Under the pieces are notes generated by a model. It saw only the letters and a list, made by a program, of their open reading frames with translations, ran no database searches and was not told where the DNA came from. From a virus, in the IMG/VR virus record IMGVR_UViG_3300025405_000009, positions 124,001 to 188,000 of that record: 64,000 bases of DNA, one strand, 5' to 3'. A program made the translations under genes and the position numbers. Positions 1-21,250 of the stretch are shown here, piece by piece; the first letter of the stretch is position 1, and every line of letters starts with the position of its first letter.

Positions 1-2
1 TA

Positions 3-200
3 GGATTATATAAAAACGAAGTTAATAAGCCAAACCAAAATGCACTGCATTCTGGACATAAAAGAGGTATACTAATAATAGGTATTTTTGAAACTAAATT
101 GCGAACTGGTTTAAAAATTGTTGAAAAACTCCACATATATGAGACACCAAGACTCATACAAAGAAAAGATAATATTTTATCAGTAATCATTACCCAATAA
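3..200 (+). CDS. C-terminal end of an unidentified protein (5' end outside window)
   Basis: An uninterrupted reading frame enters from the left edge and ends at TAA 198-200, giving about 65 residues. The composition (GILIIGIFETKLRTG and so on) looks like a real folded C-terminus with alternating hydrophobic strands. It converges on the minus-strand fibre gene and overlaps its last 11 bases, a normal tail-to-tail arrangement in phages. I do not recognise the family. The other two plus-strand frames are interrupted within the first 100 bases, which favours this frame. Confidence 0.5.
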   Translation, partial: GLYKNEVNKPNQNALHSGHKRGILIIGIFETKLRTGLKIVEKLHIYETPRLIQRKDNILSVIITQ

Positions 201-1779
201 ATACAGCACGAATATAAGAAACATTCTTAACGCCCCATGAATTTTGTTGAATAATATTTCCATTATTATCGTATAAATTTTGCATGTCAGCAAATAGAGT
301 TGCGGCTGTAGTGTTATTATTATGAATACCAGGGTTTGTTTGTGGGTACGCTGCAGACGAACCAGGAGCTCCATTATAAAAATATGTGCCGTTTTGTGAA
401 ACAGGATCTTGTCCCCATGCATATATACCCTTATAATTAGGAAGATAATTAGGAGGTGAACCTGCTGTTGCTGAACTTGTAAATCCGAACTCATTTCTCG
501 GTCCATCTTGACCATATTTTGCTGCTCCGGTTTGCCAGCCATTTAATTCAAACCAACCATTACCAGGTGTTGCAAATAAAAATGTTTGTAACCCAAAAAC
601 TGTAGTAGTATTTGCAGGCATGTAGTAATAAGAACGTAGATACACTTCTTGACCTTGAGAATACGATGGTATTCCCTCCCACGCTGCTACATCAAGAACA
701 CTTAACGGGCGAGTTGCAGTTGTATACGCTCTGTATGGTGGAGATAATAATGGAAAAGATCCTGTAACATTAGTCCAGCTAAGTTGATCAAAGGCACTAG
801 GTGTTGTTGTAGTAAATGTACCTAATCTTGCCCAATTAGTAGTTGCGTTGGCACCCATTCTAACAAAAAGTCTGCCCTCTACATATACCATACGCGGACG
901 ACTACCAGTTGTGACAGACACTCTTAAAGGATTACTTCCTGAATCTGCCATTACGTTTTGCCACATATTAGAAAAACCTGCTGTACCTTTAGAACAATCT
1001 ACACCATAAACAAAACTCGTTTCTTTATAAAATGTTGTTCCAATATCATTTATATCATACTGAGCATTATATACACTTGACGAAAGTGTTGTAATTTGTG
1101 ATTGTAACGGTGATCCATCAATTATAAAATTATATGGATCTGATCCAATGGTAATGCCATTGGATCCACTAAGATTCATCCCTCGTACGACACTAGCCGG
1201 TACATTACTACCAAGACCAACTATTTGATTATTAAGAAGAGGTACGCTTGTAGCTTTACCTGTTTTAACAGTATCTGTATTAGCAAGAATACTACTTGGA
1301 TTAACAGCTGTTACAATCTGTGTTGTTGTATTCCAGTAGCCACTTGTAGTTGAAATTAAATTTATAGCAGAAGCTATAGAGGCAACACCACTGGATAATA
1401 AAAGTGTATTTACACTCCATATACCATTATTATTTTTTAATGTATTATTATCAGCTTGAAAGTAATTAGCAGCAGGGGACCATGTATTTGCACTTGTGTA
1501 AGTATACAATGTTTGTACTTTTGAAGCATCAAAATCAAGAACTATATCACCAACTTGAGGTGATGTAACACTATTGCGACCACTAGGTACATAATTAAAA
1601 TTTCTCACTCCAACAGGGTTACCTCCCAACGTAATACCGTCACCTACAAACAATCTAGTTGTATCAGTAGTATAGCCTAACTCACCTTGCGAAAAAATAA
1701 CATTAGTTTTTCTTTGACTATCAGTTCCATTACGAACTATAATCTTAACTACTGTGTCTGTTGTTATTGTAATTGCCAT
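190..1779 (-). CDS. Tail-fibre/tropism protein with Mtd-like N-terminal domain
   Basis: A 529-residue virion protein. Residues about 8-60 (VRNGTDSQRK, QGELGYTTDT, RLFVGDG) match the N-terminal fold of major tropism determinant and many phage fibre adaptors, which attaches the protein to the baseplate or a fibre. The middle is Ser/Thr/Asn-rich. The last 280 residues are rich in aromatic residues and Gly, as in receptor-binding tips, but I cannot assign a specific fold. It lies 3 bases after a shorter paralogue of its own N-terminus (1783-2211) and appears co-transcribed with it. No diversity-generating reverse transcriptase is visible in the window. The family is fairly sure; the receptor-binding role is inferred. 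Confidence 0.75.
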   Translation of the reverse strand: MAITITTDTVVKIIVRNGTDSQRKTNVIFSQGELGYTTDTTRLFVGDGITLGGNPVGVRNFNYVPSGRNSVTSPQVGDIVLDFDASKVQTLYTYTSANTWSPAANYFQADNNTLKNNNGIWSVNTLLLSSGVASIASAINLISTTSGYWNTTTQIVTAVNPSSILANTDTVKTGKATSVPLLNNQIVGLGSNVPASVVRGMNLSGSNGITIGSDPYNFIIDGSPLQSQITTLSSSVYNAQYDINDIGTTFYKETSFVYGVDCSKGTAGFSNMWQNVMADSGSNPLRVSVTTGSRPRMVYVEGRLFVRMGANATTNWARLGTFTTTTPSAFDQLSWTNVTGSFPLLSPPYRAYTTATRPLSVLDVAAWEGIPSYSQGQEVYLRSYYYMPANTTTVFGLQTFLFATPGNGWFELNGWQTGAAKYGQDGPRNEFGFTSSATAGSPPNYLPNYKGIYAWGQDPVSQNGTYFYNGAPGSSAAYPQTNPGIHNNNTTAATLFADMQNLYDNNGNIIQQNSWGVKNVSYIRAVFIG

Positions 1780-8257: not shown

Positions 8258-10666
8258 CTATAGATATACAGGTATATACCCTATATAAGTTCCATTAGCA
8301 TCATAAGCTGATATACGTTTAGAGAAAGTACCGAGAGCACCAGTACCTGTAGTACTAAATGCAGGTTTAGCCATGACGACGGTACCTTGCGAGCTAAGAT
8401 TATTTACAAATGTATAATTAGCCGTTTTTGATACAAGATTTGATCCAAGAGCAAAACTATTAGCTCCACAAACATTATTACCGGATCCACCTGCTACGAA
8501 GGAATTTAATCCGCAAGCATAATTGTAATACCCACCTGCTATAGTTGCGTTAGCAATATTTGTTGGAATAACATTAAAGCTACCACCTGCAATGGTACCG
8601 TAATTACCAGAAGCTGTGTTACAAATACCACCACCAACAAATGATGAATATCCAGAAGCTGTGTTATTGAGACCACCACCTATTATTGAATAACATCCTT
8701 GAGCGTAGTTAGAAGAACCACCAACTACTGCAGAATATGCACTTAATGCAACATTATTTAATCCACCACCTATAAATGAATATATTCCAGAAGTAGAATT
8801 GCTCCAACCACCACCAGTAAATGAATAATTTGCATAAGCATTATTGCTTTGACCACCTACAACTGTAGCACAATTTGCATTAACAAAGTTACATATTCCA
8901 CCACCTATAAAAGATTTTAATCCACCCGCTATATTTTGTATACCACCACCAATCGTTGAAGTATTTGAAGCAGCATTACAGACACCACCAGCTATAGTAC
9001 TATAACAACCGGAAGCTGTATTCAATACTCCACCTCCTATAGTATTAAACGCTCCACAGCACGCAATATTTTGATCATAAACCCATGCAGTTGAGTTTCC
9101 ACCAAAACTTGTAAAATTACCAGGTACAACTACACTCGCACAACTACTATTACATGTAATATTTTGTATAAAAGCAGTAAATGTTTTTGTACTTGATAAG
9201 GCGGGAGCTGCAGTCGTACTTAAAAAAATAGTAGCAATATCATTTTGATTAAAATTACTGCACACTGATGGAGTATTAAAAATAAATGCTGTACAACAAC
9301 CACTACTATGGGCAGATAATTTTGCAGCGTAACTAATAGGATAAGCACCAGCTGCATTAAAGCTGCCACCTCCAATATAAGAAAAGCTTGTATTAACAAT
9401 ATTTGAATTACCGCCACCAATAAAAGAATTACAGCCATTGGATGTATTAAGTGTACCACCTACAATAGCTGAACCATTTAAAGCTGCATTACATAACCCA
9501 CCCCCCACAGTACCGTAATTGCCTGAAGAGGTATTTAAGATACCGCCTCCAATAGTATTACCTATAACAGCTTGATTTAAAGATTGATCATAAATGTATA
9601 AACTATTGGCACTTAAACTTGCAGTATTACCTGATCCTTGGGTACAATAACTAAAATCAGTAGTGCCTGTTGAACCTCCAATTATAAGACAACCTGCAGA
9701 AGCACCTGATCCACTTATTACAGATATAACGGTTGCACAAGTTGAATATAATGCAGATCCTAAATTGTTTATTGAAGTTAAAGAGGGGTTATTTGTAGTA
9801 GTGTAAATTACACCCACAGTATCACCTGTTTTGAATTTTGTAGTAAGACCTGCCCCTTGATTATCAATAATACCGGTACATTTACCATTACCAGATAATG
9901 TACCAATAACTGAGCCTGCATTACTACGGGTTTTAATATTATTAACAAATGCTATAGCAGCACCACCAATATGATTATAACCACCTGTGCCGATAAAATT
10001 ATAACATCCACCAGATATATAATTACCAATACCACCACCTAAAACATTATAGTTACCGCTGTTTGTATTGTTTATACCACCGAGAGTAGTACTGTAATTT
10101 CCACCATATCCATACGGTACACTACTAACAGGAATAATTGTACTAGTATTAATAACAGAATACGGTCCGCGATAACCACCTATGTTAGGATTCCAAGATC
10201 CTGAGTTTAGATAAACCGTTGTTTCTGTGTTTGTCCAACCTGCACTGTTTGTAATAACAGTTGTATTAGCATTTCCAGTAGCGTTCCATGTAGTTAAATT
10301 TGTTGTTACAGTATTATATGTATACTGCCAATTAGCACTGTTGCTGCTTAAAGTTGTAAGTGTGTTATTCCAATTGCCACTTAATGAGGAAAGTGTATAG
10401 TATGTTGAATTCCAAGTACCACTATTGCCACTTAACGTAGTTCCAAGGTTAACAATAGATTTAGTCCAATACGCACTTGTTGAATAAACAGTTGAGTAAG
10501 TAGATTGCCAATTAGCACTATTTGCTGTAAGGGATGTTAGAGCTGCTTGTCCGTAATATGCACTAAAATTTGATATTTGACTTACAATAGTGTTAATGGT
10601 AGCATTAGCAACTAAACCTGTAATTGCAGGTACATTAAGTGTTAGGGTAGCGGCTACTGTAGGCAT
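8258..10666 (-). CDS. Fibre with coiled-coil stalk and YadA-like beta-roll repeats
   Basis: An 802-residue protein. Residues about 40-160 contain repeats spaced by 14 residues (SANW..TY.TV), a two-heptad coiled-coil pattern with Trp, Tyr and Val at core positions. Residues about 165-760 are stacked repeats of the type (I/V)GGG.(N/L)N.ASG.YS(S/T)(I/V), the YadA/trimeric-adhesin left-handed roll. Many repeats carry Cys (GGGICN, GGGVCN). The C-terminus (FALGSNL...NYTFVNNLSSQG, then a short beta tail) is the same cap seen in 29948-33481, 35205-38726 and 59266-60906. There is no YadA membrane anchor, as expected for a virion fibre rather than an adhesin. Likely a trimeric long tail fibre. Confidence 0.8.
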   Translation of the reverse strand: MPTVAATLTLNVPAITGLVANATINTIVSQISNFSAYYGQAALTSLTANSANWQSTYSTVYSTSAYWTKSIVNLGTTLSGNSGTWNSTYYTLSSLSGNWNNTLTTLSSNSANWQYTYNTVTTNLTTWNATGNANTTVITNSAGWTNTETTVYLNSGSWNPNIGGYRGPYSVINTSTIIPVSSVPYGYGGNYSTTLGGINNTNSGNYNVLGGGIGNYISGGCYNFIGTGGYNHIGGAAIAFVNNIKTRSNAGSVIGTLSGNGKCTGIIDNQGAGLTTKFKTGDTVGVIYTTTNNPSLTSINNLGSALYSTCATVISVISGSGASAGCLIIGGSTGTTDFSYCTQGSGNTASLSANSLYIYDQSLNQAVIGNTIGGGILNTSSGNYGTVGGGLCNAALNGSAIVGGTLNTSNGCNSFIGGGNSNIVNTSFSYIGGGSFNAAGAYPISYAAKLSAHSSGCCTAFIFNTPSVCSNFNQNDIATIFLSTTAAPALSSTKTFTAFIQNITCNSSCASVVVPGNFTSFGGNSTAWVYDQNIACCGAFNTIGGGVLNTASGCYSTIAGGVCNAASNTSTIGGGIQNIAGGLKSFIGGGICNFVNANCATVVGGQSNNAYANYSFTGGGWSNSTSGIYSFIGGGLNNVALSAYSAVVGGSSNYAQGCYSIIGGGLNNTASGYSSFVGGGICNTASGNYGTIAGGSFNVIPTNIANATIAGGYYNYACGLNSFVAGGSGNNVCGANSFALGSNLVSKTANYTFVNNLSSQGTVVMAKPAFSTTGTGALGTFSKRISAYDANGTYIGYIPVYL

Positions 10667-18011: not shown

Positions 18012-18021
18012 TTGTTCTTTG

Positions 18022-18028
18022 ATAAATA
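18022..18028 (+). promoter_or_regulatory. Late box in front of tmRNA
   Basis: The sequence is GATAAATA. With the T4 geometry (+1 six bases after the last A) transcription would start at 18034, exactly the first base of the mature tmRNA. Confidence 0.6.
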
Positions 18029-18033
18029 ATTTT

Positions 18034-18484
18034 GGGGGCGTACTGGTTTCGACTTATACTCGAAGTTTGTATGGCACGTAGTGGTTAATCAGTTGGCCAC
18101 TTTAAAAAGCTGATTAAAAACATAAATGCAGAAGATAACTCTGACGCTATCCTTGCGGAAGCATTGTATTGTCTCGAGAACGCTGACGAAATCCTCGCCA
18201 GCTTTGAAGAGCCAGCACTCCTAGCTGCCTAAGGAACCAAAAGATAATCCTATTAAAGCTTTTGGAAATAAAAATAGGTTTAGAAGGTCTTGTGATTCTT
18301 AGAAAATTGAGTGCAAGCGGTGGTATGTGGTCGTTAATCACACATACAGGTAGGACTCTAAACATGGATAGGTCGCTAGTGCCTGGTTACCTTTAGTCAA
18401 CCAAAGTACGAAAGCTAGCTAAGCGTGTAGAAGTATAAATAGAAAAGTATAAACACAGGGGTTCGACTCCCCTCGCCTCCACCA
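18034..18484 (+). ncRNA. ssrA: Transfer-messenger RNA (tmRNA)
   Basis: A complete one-piece tmRNA of 451 nt. The 5' end GGGGGCG pairs with CGCCTCC before the encoded CCA (18482-18484). The T-arm is GGGG-TTCGACT-CCCC, and the 5' segment TACTGGTTTCGAC is the conserved tmRNA start. The tag reading frame ends at TAA 18230-18232. If resumption is at GCA 18128 the tag has 34 codons, beginning AEDNSDAIL and ending EEPALLAA. The terminal ALLAA resembles the LAA-type ClpXP degron. The tag is much longer than the common 10-15 residues. tmRNA rescues stalled ribosomes; here it may help when late transcripts are cut or leaderless. Confidence 0.93.
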
Positions 18485-19093: not shown

Positions 19094-19168
19094 ACGTCGG
19101 TGGTACATTGGCTGTGCAGCAGTCTCCAAAACTGCCTTAGGTAGGTTCGATTCCTACCCGGCGTGCCA
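19094..19168 (+). tRNA. tRNA-Trp (CCA)
   Basis: Acceptor ACGTCGG/CCGGCGT. Anticodon stem GCAGT/ACTGC with loop CTCCAAA gives CCA. The 3' CCA is encoded. Confidence 0.92.
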
Positions 19169-19203
19169 TAAATAGAATTATAGTAATCGGCAAAACCCTC
19201 TCT

Positions 19204-19307
19204 ACAACTGTTCGAAGAGTTGTATGCATGGAACCGGTTCTTCGTAAGTTCATACAAAACTAGAACATAATCAAGGACGCTTGAGGTTTTTAGGACAAAG
19301 GAACTTA
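19204..19307 (+). other. Structured spacer between tRNA-Trp and tRNA-Met
   Basis: No plausible gene. It folds by eye: ACAACT/AGTTGT hairpin (19204-19223) and an outer TAAGTTC/GAACTTA helix (19245-19251 with 19301-19307) enclosing a TCAAG-GACG-CTTGA hairpin (19271-19284). It could be a small RNA element or a decayed tRNA. Confidence 0.35.
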
Positions 19308-19317
19308 CATTAATTTC

Positions 19318-19389
19318 CGCAGAGTAGAGAACTGGTATCTCGTCACGCTCATAACGTGAAGGCAGTGGGTTCGATTCCCACCTCTGCCA
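19318..19389 (+). tRNA. tRNA-Met (CAT), initiator-like
   Basis: The anticodon loop is CTCATAA (CAT). Position 1 is C and position 72 is C, so the 1:72 pair is absent while pairs 2-7 are intact; a missing 1:72 pair is the initiator hallmark. The run TGGTATCTCGTCACG, then CTCATAA, follows bacterial initiator tRNA closely. However, the three consecutive G:C pairs of the anticodon stem are only partly kept (A:U, C:G, G:C). CCA is not encoded. Confidence 0.85.
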
Positions 19390-19398
19390 ATTTTTTAG

Positions 19399-19427
19399 TT
19401 GCCACTTCCTTATTCAGGCATTATATT
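19399..19427 (+). promoter_or_regulatory. Sigma70-like promoter for large RNA
   Basis: TTGCCA, 17 bases, TATATT; predicted +1 near 19434. Confidence 0.6.
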
Positions 19428-19433
19428 AAAAGA

Positions 19434-19950
19434 ATAAGAATTGATCTTTGATAGTACATTTTGAAATTTGACTAGGCGCAAGTCTTAAAAGCTAAAAGAC
19501 TCCCGCGATAGGTGATAGCGAAGCATTCGGCCGAGTGAACGTGTAGCCTATAAGATAAATCTCCGTGAAAGCGAATGAGGTTTTCTAGTCATACAAATTA
19601 AGTTCCCACGTTGTAGGTATAATCCGTGGGAGAGATACGTTGAGTTGTCTGTTGGTATGTTAGTAGACGTATTTTCATAGGAGGAGCCAAAAACTTACAT
19701 ACAGCTACGATCCCTTGCTTTAATAAACACAGACTGGTCGACGAGCTGGCTCCATGCCGGCACTCGATGAGGAGAGAACAAAATCCGGAACAAAAGCTTT
19801 TCAAACACCACAAATTTTCATATAATGCTACCATGATGTCGGTCTCAAGTCCGAGCGATAGGAGATGGCCTCTCCTACGAAACGCAGAGAGAATGAAAAC
19901 ATAGACTGCAGTCTGCCCCTATTACCCTGATCAGGTAGTAGGGGTTTTCT
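19434..19950 (+). ncRNA. Large structured non-coding RNA (ROOL/GOLLD-like candidate)
   Basis: About 517 nt with its own promoter and terminator and no convincing reading frame. Helices seen by eye: TGACTAG/CTAGTCA (19469-19475/19585-19591) closing a domain that holds AGTCTT/AAGACT, ATAGG/CCTAT, CATTC/GAGTG and AATCTC/GAGGTT. Then come TCCCACG/CGTGGGA (19604-19610/19625-19631), ATACGT/ACGTAT (19635/19667), GGAGCCA/TGGCTCC (19683/19747) and TAGGAGA/TCTCCTA (19859/19871). Its size and position beside phage tRNAs recall the ornate RNAs ROOL and GOLLD. I cannot recall their consensus well enough to assign it; a new class is equally possible. Confidence 0.7.
19916..19948 (+). terminator. Rho-independent terminator of the large RNA
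   Basis: An 11-bp stem (CCCCTATTACC with GGTAGTAGGGG), a 7-base loop, then TTTT. Confidence 0.9.
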
Positions 19951-19976
19951 GTGTTCTAGAATGATTAAATAATTAT

Positions 19977-20105
19977 ATGCTCGATCCACTGGAAGCTGCT
20001 ATGGTGGGTTTATTTACTTTAGGTTTTATAACAGCTTATGCTATAATGTATTCTACTAAGTTGGTAACTTTACTTGCAAAGTATTTTAAGGGAATCAAAA
20101 AATAA
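19977..20105 (+). CDS. 42-residue single-pass membrane peptide
   Basis: The frame begins MLDPLEAAMVGLFTLGF, continues ITAYAIMYSTKLVTLLA and ends in Lys. The middle is one hydrophobic helix of about 22 residues with a positively charged C-terminus. It lies between the RNA terminator and the 20147 promoter. It could be a holin-like or inhibitory membrane peptide; unproven. Confidence 0.5.
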   Translation: MLDPLEAAMVGLFTLGFITAYAIMYSTKLVTLLAKYFKGIKK

Positions 20106-20146: not shown

Positions 20147-21250
20147 ATGAGCACAACAAACACACTAGACAAGTTCGTCGCCAAGAGCAACGATATTCGC
20201 CAGACGCTGCAAGGTTATACCCTCGCTCCTCTGGATATTGAGTCCATCGAGAAGAACGGAAATAACTTCTCTTACAATAACAACCGCCTATCCAGTACAT
20301 CTCTTAAGAGTCTCCTTGGAGTTCTTGGAGTTAAGGATCAGCTCGTTAACGAGATTAAGGATGACAGCTCTCAGTGGGCTCCTCTCCATAATGCTCTTAC
20401 GAACATTAAGAAGAACAAGCGTGTAACCGCGATTGTTAATAACCACAACAATGAGATTGTTAATCTCTTCGATCGCCCTATCAAGGAAGAGCGTCAGATT
20501 GACCTCTCAGCTGGTCTCCGTTATACAGAGGCCTTCTTGAAGGACAACGAGAATAATCTCGAACTTCGTGACTTTAACTTTGATCCTACTAACATTAGTA
20601 TTGGAATTAACTTCAAGAACCCTGATTCTGATATTGACGTATTCGGAGATGGTCATGATATGTGGAAGGGTGGTTTTGGAATGAACTTCTCTCTCAACAA
20701 GTCTCAGTTCTATCCCTATCTCCTCCGTTTGGTTTGCTCCAATGGAATGACCGCTGTTCATCGTATGGCCCAGCGTTTCATCGATAGTGCTGACTTCAGT
20801 CAGAAGACCTTCGATACTCAGGTTCGTAAGTTCCTAACTGGTGACGCTCTTCGTCAGGAGATTACGTCAAGTGCTAATCGCCTTAGGGATAACAATGCCT
20901 CCCTTAGAGAATTCAATGCTGCTCGTAGTATTACGATGAAGTATGATAAGGAGCTAGCAGTAACTGCTTTCTCTGATCACGAGATTCGTTCACGGTATAA
21001 AGAGGTCGGTATTGATCTTAATAAATCGAAGGGTACTCGTTGGCAGTCAACGGCTAACTCGAACGTTAATGCTTACGATCTCTTTAATAAGATCACAAAC
21101 GTTGCTACTCACAGTGTCTCTGACGAGAACGTAGCATTCAGGATGGAGCTCAACCGACTTGCCTCTGAGTTGTTCTTCAAGGGACCAGACTTCGCTTCAA
21201 TCGCACCGGATCCATTCCGTGAGGTTGCACCAGCAAATCTTAACGCCTAA
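20147..21250 (+). CDS. DUF932-like phage protein, highly expressed
   Basis: A 367-residue soluble protein. The arrangement with WAPLHNALTNI early, FGMNFSLNKSQFYPYLLRLVCSNGMTAVHR in the middle and a helical C-terminus recalls the phage/plasmid DUF932 family, where a Cys-Ser-Asn-Gly element is typical; the biochemical role of that family is not known to me. Codons are strongly biased to C/G-ending forms (CTC, AAC, AAG, GAC), like 13866 and 14503, implying high expression. It has a consensus-like promoter and a strong terminator, so it is a monocistronic unit. The early-gene assignment is inferred from promoter type. Confidence 0.6.
   Translation: MSTTNTLDKFVAKSNDIRQTLQGYTLAPLDIESIEKNGNNFSYNNNRLSSTSLKSLLGVLGVKDQLVNEIKDDSSQWAPLHNALTNIKKNKRVTAIVNNHNNEIVNLFDRPIKEERQIDLSAGLRYTEAFLKDNENNLELRDFNFDPTNISIGINFKNPDSDIDVFGDGHDMWKGGFGMNFSLNKSQFYPYLLRLVCSNGMTAVHRMAQRFIDSADFSQKTFDTQVRKFLTGDALRQEITSSANRLRDNNASLREFNAARSITMKYDKELAVTAFSDHEIRSRYKEVGIDLNKSKGTRWQSTANSNVNAYDLFNKITNVATHSVSDENVAFRMELNRLASELFFKGPDFASIAPDPFREVAPANLNA

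Follow-up and report, generated by a model that had tools for sequence, protein, structure and literature searches.

ROOL and GOLLD are phage RNAs that assemble without protein, and both form nanocages, that of GOLLD being a 14-mer. According to published descriptions, GOLLD resides in phages near tRNA-Met, combines a universally conserved 3′ region with a less conserved 5′ region, sometimes carries tRNAs in a linker, and in many cases exceeds 800 nucleotides (PMC12286853). OLE, from Gram-positive extremophiles, is a large structured RNA that dimerises. Theta ribozymes, which are HDV-like, cleave RNA transcribed from the tRNA regions of phages (PMC10879173).

We analysed a 64,000-nucleotide stretch of DNA (hereafter 'the window') taken from a virus record of 198,847 bp that represents a large, probably freshwater-type phage. 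Between a tRNA-Met gene (19318-19389) and a 367-amino-acid open reading frame (20147-21250) without Pfam or PHROG match, the window holds no credible gene, save a possible 42-amino-acid frame (19977-20105). A sequence-only reading had proposed that positions 19434-19950 encode a half-kilobase structured RNA with its own promoter and terminator, and had noted, while leaving family membership unconfirmed, that its size and tRNA-side location match those of ROOL and GOLLD. Elsewhere in the window (~30000-63900, plus 8258-10666 on the minus strand), several very long open reading frames carry repeated SxxIGGGxxN-type motifs that resemble tail-fibre or adhesin head repeats.

The setting is that of GOLLD and ROOL, namely a phage genome near tRNAs. 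With GOLLD the RNA also shares a tRNA-Met neighbourhood, a conserved 3′ and a variable 5′ part, a tRNA that is sometimes inside the transcript, and homo-oligomerisation through loop contacts, which is here a prediction; with ROOL it shares a pseudoknotted fold. However, scans of the window stretch (E<=10) and of stretches from homologues with the ROOL, GOLLD, OLE and HEARO covariance models found no match, and the RNA is therefore not a detectable member of these families. It could still be argued that it is a distant, unrecognised member of GOLLD or ROOL, since the published GOLLD outline (PMC12286853) fits in its phage origin, tRNA-Met, conserved 3′ region and linker tRNAs. We regard this as very unlikely, given the silent models and a ~206-nucleotide core, about four times smaller than GOLLD, that also stands alone at that size, whereas many GOLLD RNAs surpass 800 nucleotides by that account. 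A ribozyme and a boxA-like leader, both found here, are absent from the GOLLD passages considered (PMC12286853). ROOL further differs in having a set of quaternary contacts instead of a single self-complementary loop, and OLE, whose dimer has only a predicted counterpart here, is a bacterial chromosomal rather than a phage RNA. The structured RNA is absent from Rfam 15, and searches of open papers, judged by title and abstract, yielded no description of it. Its closest analogues are GOLLD and ROOL, which it resembles in setting and probably in oligomerisation, together with theta ribozymes for the use of a ribozyme within a phage tRNA region, although the ribozyme here is twister-like.

We consider it probable that this RNA represents a new family of phage structured noncoding RNA, protected by a boxA-like element, trimmed by a ribozyme to ~390 nucleotides and joined into a homodimer or larger assembly. 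Comparison of homologues demonstrates its core, the palindrome in its Pe loop, a swappable 5′ module and a twister-like ribozyme 5-8 nucleotides 3′ of composite cores. The sequence-only reading had recognised the structure and its boundaries. The likeness to ROOL and GOLLD that it pointed out did not extend to a match with their models, or with those of OLE and HEARO, and the reading made no mention of the ribozyme, the leader with its boxA-like element or the modularity.

Transcript boundaries and modular composition

The promoter and intrinsic terminator are both where that reading placed them (Table 1), with the terminator now counted as 12 pairs, and the 3′ end of the tRNA-Met lies 10 nucleotides upstream of the promoter in the window. 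In a scan, shuffled sequences give promoter-like sites about as often, and the weight of the promoter therefore lies in its conservation: TTGCC...TATATTAA is retained across the homologues of alignment A1. Another promoter-like site (19798-19826), which overlaps the ribozyme, was taken as chance. Neither Rfam nor ARAGORN matched a tRNA, tmRNA or group I intron within 19400-19950.

Table 1. Features of the structured RNA locus and of the tmRNA upstream of it, by position in the window
Feature	Position	Strand	Remarks
Phage tmRNA	18034-18484		boxA-like TGTTCTTTGATAA directly 5′, at 18013-18025
Sigma-70-type promoter TTGCCA-17-TATATT	19399-19427	+	10/12 match; transcription would start at ~19434
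boxA-like antitermination element TGATCTTTGATAG (predicted)	19442-19454	+	In leader
Swappable 5′ module C2 (GACTAG...CTAGTC)	19470-19590	+	Hairpin loop UCGGCCGA; replaced by C1 in other phages
Conserved structured core D (model R1)	19602-19807	+	Also stand-alone in two other phages
Hairpin Pa	19603-19632 (19603-19610/19625-19632)	+	From alignment
K1 loop-loop contact, GUAGG/CUUAC	19613-19617 (Pa loop)/19694-19698	+	
Helix Pb	19633-19674 (19633-19640/19667-19674)	+	From alignment
K2 pseudoknot, GUCUGU/ACAGAC	19647-19652 (Pb loop)/19729-19734	+	
Helix Pc	19680-19714 (19680-19683/19711-19714)	+	From alignment
Helix Pd	19737-19768 (19737-19741/19764-19768)	+	From alignment
Inner hairpin Ph, GGC-UCCAU-GCC	19748-19758	+	Within Pd
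Hairpin Pe	19772-19801 (19772-19777/19796-19801)	+	From alignment
Palindrome UCCGGA	19784-19789	+	Pe apical loop; predicted self-kissing (homodimer) contact
Type-P1 twister-like ribozyme	19815-19899	+	P1 19815-19821/19893-19899; extra hairpin ~19860-19878
Intrinsic terminator	19915-19945	+	12 pairs, then T-rich tail

Homologues were gathered from IMG/VR by synteny and motif scans; exact-motif search returned identical copies only, while synteny with the neighbouring 367-amino-acid protein gave divergent ones. There are 16 distinct core sequences, comprising the fourteen of alignment A5 and two stand-alone ~210-nucleotide copies (L079 and L086), about half-identical, in the tRNA arrays of other phages. 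The set also includes a truncated copy (L045) as well as several identical sequences. Apart from the stand-alone copies, the set comes from related phages or shares most of its sequence. tRNAs reside in or near most homologues, but not L019.

Phage and plasmid collections gave no useful match; the one hit from one of these searches is the neighbouring tRNA-Met. The core motif found 10 matches in species genomes, in none of which model R1 gave anything better than E 0.45, and the two of them that were inspected look coding-like. A second short motif led to 112 stretches, and among the matches listed the 69 new loci (574 kb) yielded no R1 match below E 6. In L022, L027, L042 and L047 the motif is present by chance, and L084 has the loop motif without the core; the L039 group was examined by model search alone.

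The composite transcript reads promoter, boxA-like leader, swappable module, core, twister-like ribozyme and terminator, an order that the window follows. The half-kilobase RNA proposed for it is real structured RNA, but the 517 nucleotides comprise several units rather than one domain. The 5′ position is occupied by either of two unrelated ~110-120-nucleotide modules closed by GAC...GTC: C2 in the window, L009, L024, L038, L045 and L048, and C1 in L010, L011, L013, L015, L018, L019 and L055. A third, optional module (C3), structured-looking and ~110-140 nucleotides long (TTTGATTACTGCGTA...GGCCAGTAATCAT), lies between the first module and the core in L009, L013, L015, L018 and L055 and occurs as an all-or-none unit. 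A tRNA-Met is inside the transcript, directly 3′ of the leader, in L015, L017 and L029, and behind a variant leader in L048.

This arrangement permits another reading, wherein the locus is a string of independent small RNAs that, as in a tRNA operon, are processed apart and have no joint function. The core is constant, and also exists alone, whereas the presence of C1, C2, C3 and tRNA-Met differs between relatives, as this reading would predict. Module and core, however, are only about a dozen nucleotides apart, and no processing site was recognised in that linker. We hold the reading to be possible but doubtful, and it differs from our main explanation solely in the size of the mature RNA.

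A second structured RNA lies between tRNA-Trp and tRNA-Met in the window (19178-19312), with helices including GTAAGTT...AACTTAC. It is present in nine phages at 77-92% identity, shows compensatory change in 12 of 33 predicted pairs, and has no Rfam match at E<=10.

A conserved, pseudoknotted core

Covariation among homologues demonstrates a core of 206 nucleotides with six helices and the pseudoknot K2, to which the K1 loop-loop contact is added with weaker support. Scored over helices Pa, Pb, Pc, Pd, Ph and Pe together with K1, K2 and the palindrome (48 pairs), the fourteen-sequence alignment A5 has 97.6% of its cells paired; 21 pairs show compensatory change, and none of 500 shuffles is as good, whereas in slid controls only 32-52% are paired. 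When the diverged L079 is included (15 sequences), 96.8% of cells are paired, and compensatory change is seen at 29 of the 40 pairs (0/500 shuffles). This count omits K1 and Ph, which the model left unaligned; the alignment, being fitted to nested helices, favours those and not K2 or the palindrome.

K2 appears in A5 as GUCUGU/ACAGAC, GUCCGU/ACGGAU, GCUUGU/ACAAGC and GCUCGU/ACGAGC, and in the stand-alone copies as GCUGAU/AUUAGC or GCUCAU/AUGAGC. K1 shows one-sided changes only in A5, and its compensatory change (GUAGC/GCUAC) is seen in L079 and L086 alone, where it was placed by eye; Ph is invariant in A5. A further GGAGCC/GGCUCC pairing that spans the core does not vary apart from L048, where two of its pairs fail, and was left out of the structure on that account.

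In the stand-alone copies, K1, K2, Pa and Pc are altered in sequence with pairing kept. L079 was recovered by a search of the 121.6-kb L037 record with R1, a covariance model built from the nested part of the core (44.6 bits, E 5e-12), and L086, in a 163-kb record, was reached through the loop motif and scores 47.6 bits with R1. Each has promoter-like sequence just 5′, a T run just 3′ and tRNAs around it.

The stretch folds at -140.2 kcal/mol, a stability moderately above that of shuffles (0/100 equal), and the corresponding z-score, by itself just -2.03, could accommodate a protein-coding or chance structure. Homologues, however, share no reading frame (composite RNAs carry 3-18 stops per forward frame) and keep base pairs rather than frames. 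With the dense compensatory change in the core, these observations make a coding or chance origin vanishingly improbable for the stretch, and for the core it is refuted by the covariation, which the sequence-only reading had named as a check. The picture drawn there, in which a large structured RNA of a phage sits next to tRNAs and has a promoter and a terminator to itself, is upheld.

The boxA-like leader and the twister-like ribozyme

The boxA consensus of gamma-proteobacterial rRNA leaders is GYTCTTTAANA (PMC5725501), and the box in the leader matches it if A is allowed for Y and G for A. The window contains two TG[AT]TCTTT[GA]A[TCA]A sites compared with 0.48 expected, the other (18013-18024) directly preceding the tmRNA; as the pattern was made after seeing the leader, only the enrichment before tmRNA counts as independent. 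One box before the tmRNA and another before the structured RNA were present in 9 of the 9 tmRNA-bearing loci checked, the window included, with the tmRNA in L017, L024 and L045 recognised solely from its conserved 5′ sequence. The box is missing from L019 and variant in L048. Like the rRNA boxA, which is the NusB/NusE site, the element places TGNTCTTTRANA in the untranslated leader of a stable RNA; unlike it, the element belongs to a phage and lies upstream of a tmRNA and a novel noncoding RNA. These resemblances suggest Nus-factor antitermination at the leader.

Group I introns were encountered in several of these records (L010 4260-4492, L017 1695-1899, L018 5756-5988 and L024 3301-3525), and that of L010 overlaps the end of a tmRNA match and may interrupt the tmRNA gene.

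At the other end of the transcript, cmscan of 19150-20000 reports a type-P1 twister at 19819-19895 (25.8 bits, E 0.0043). This is the best Rfam match at the ribozyme site in the short stretches scanned (25.8-30.2 bits, E 1.4e-4 to 4.3e-3), including L015 (28.3 bits, E 7e-4) and L037 (30.2 bits, E 1.4e-4), with matches also in L038, L017 and L048; no scanned copy reaches the gathering score of 67.2 bits for this family (RF03160). Nevertheless, element order, conserved nucleotides and both pseudoknots are those of type-P1 twisters. Fourteen copies parse as P1, UAA, P2, T2, P4, CAAG loop, AAA and GAGAG, with the U of UAA changed to C in L017 and to A in L037, and pseudoknots T1 and T2 are paired in all 14. 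Compensatory change affects 7 of 16 pairs (0/500 shuffles), and P1 (UUUUCAU/AUGAAAA, CUUUA/UAAAG and, in L037, UAGUUG/CAACUA) and P4 (UCG/CGA, CCG/CGG, CUG/CAG, CAC/GUG, CAU/GUG and CAG/CUG, with one mismatch copy, L015) covary. T1 and T2 are nearly invariant within the set, and relative to the Rfam consensus both sides have changed, from CCC/GGG to CUC/GAG in T1 and from GC/GC to AC/GU in T2. Departures include an A.A adjoining P1 and a mismatch in P2.

Each record has one strong twister match, which in most composites lies 5-8 nucleotides 3′ of the core, so that the ribozyme is at the 3′ end of a structured noncoding RNA instead of a tRNA. Cores without an adjacent twister occur in L019/L032, L079 and L086, and twisters apart from a core in the L019, L032 and L037 records, the twister of the last heading a different RNA; the ribozyme is therefore a separable part of a combination and not an obligate unit. 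Cleavage is expected at U19823^A19824. The 3′ end at this predicted cut (CAAACACCACAAAUUUUCAUAU^ in the window) can be compared with that of the stand-alone copies, CAAACACCACG-U8.

Structured-looking RNAs also lie directly 3′ of twisters in L037 (~8555-8860, minus strand), L055 (after 3866) and L036 (~1-190, minus strand), with common motifs GTCGGAGG or CTCGACGGAG; in L037 a promoter-like site sets the transcript start at the ribozyme. The 40-kb viral contig L036 has a Twister-P5 ribozyme over the Rfam threshold (189-264, minus strand).

The palindromic Pe loop and predicted assembly

The Pe apical loop follows the pattern ACAAA-N-[6]-A-Y-AAA, in which the six central bases have been rewritten several times (UCCGGA, UCUAGA, ACUAGU and UGCGCA) with self-complementarity kept. 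Among 117 gap-free six-column windows of the alignment, this is the only one that is palindromic in all variants (4/4), and every other has at most one palindromic variant. Since each version is self-complementary, we predict homodimerisation through a self-kissing loop (UCCGGA:UCCGGA). Independently of any likeness to ROOL and GOLLD, the conserved loop supports homo-oligomerisation. It cannot close on itself and an intramolecular partner fails, which leaves pairing of one copy with another as the simplest interpretation.

The partner in question is CUGG/CUAG at 19734-19737, to which the Pe loop might pair within its own RNA rather than between copies. The two sites are correlated (CUGG/CCGG and CUAG/CUAG) in 13 of 14 close relatives, but the pairing breaks in L029 (CUAG versus CCGG) and in L079/L086 (CUAU versus GCGC) while the palindrome is intact throughout, and the partner overlaps K2 and Pd. 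We consider such in-cis pairing unlikely. The palindrome could also be bound to something other than a second copy, and the loop is large and A-rich whereas known dimer loops are compact.

The hairpin loop of module C2 is likewise a palindrome, either UCGGCCGA or, in L045/L048, GUGCAC. As a second self-pairing contact it is suggestive only, because a longer stem is an alternative reading of the UCGGCCGA version. A bolder and tentative proposal, which may well be wrong, is that the RNA, with no relationship to ROOL or GOLLD, is a building block whose self-assembly runs through both palindromic loops: monomers would form chains or closed multimers, display the swappable 5′ module or tRNA-Met as cargo, and obtain their 3′ end from the twister ribozyme.

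Under our main explanation, host RNA polymerase would initiate at ~19434, and the boxA-like leader would load NusB/NusE as in rRNA, allowing a long untranslated RNA to escape Rho. The transcript would fold into its compact pseudoknotted core, and ribozyme cleavage would free a ~390-nucleotide RNA from the terminator hairpin, leaving a tail nearly the same as that of the stand-alone form (CAAACACCAC). Two copies might then pair by their Pe loops into a homodimer, and the palindromic loop in C2 might extend this to larger assemblies. Candidate roles for the assembly are scaffold, compartment, tRNA or ribosome partner, and decoy.

If this explanation is true, the RNA would be a third family of phage RNA assemblies, unrelated to ROOL and GOLLD. 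Its small stand-alone form of ~210 nucleotides would be a tractable model for the role of protein-free phage RNA assemblies, and its self-kissing loop would be a six-base handle at which a point mutation should switch assembly on or off. Furthermore, the boxA-like leader and the twister-like 3′ end suggest that a long untranslated phage RNA may receive rRNA-like protection and then be trimmed by a built-in ribozyme.
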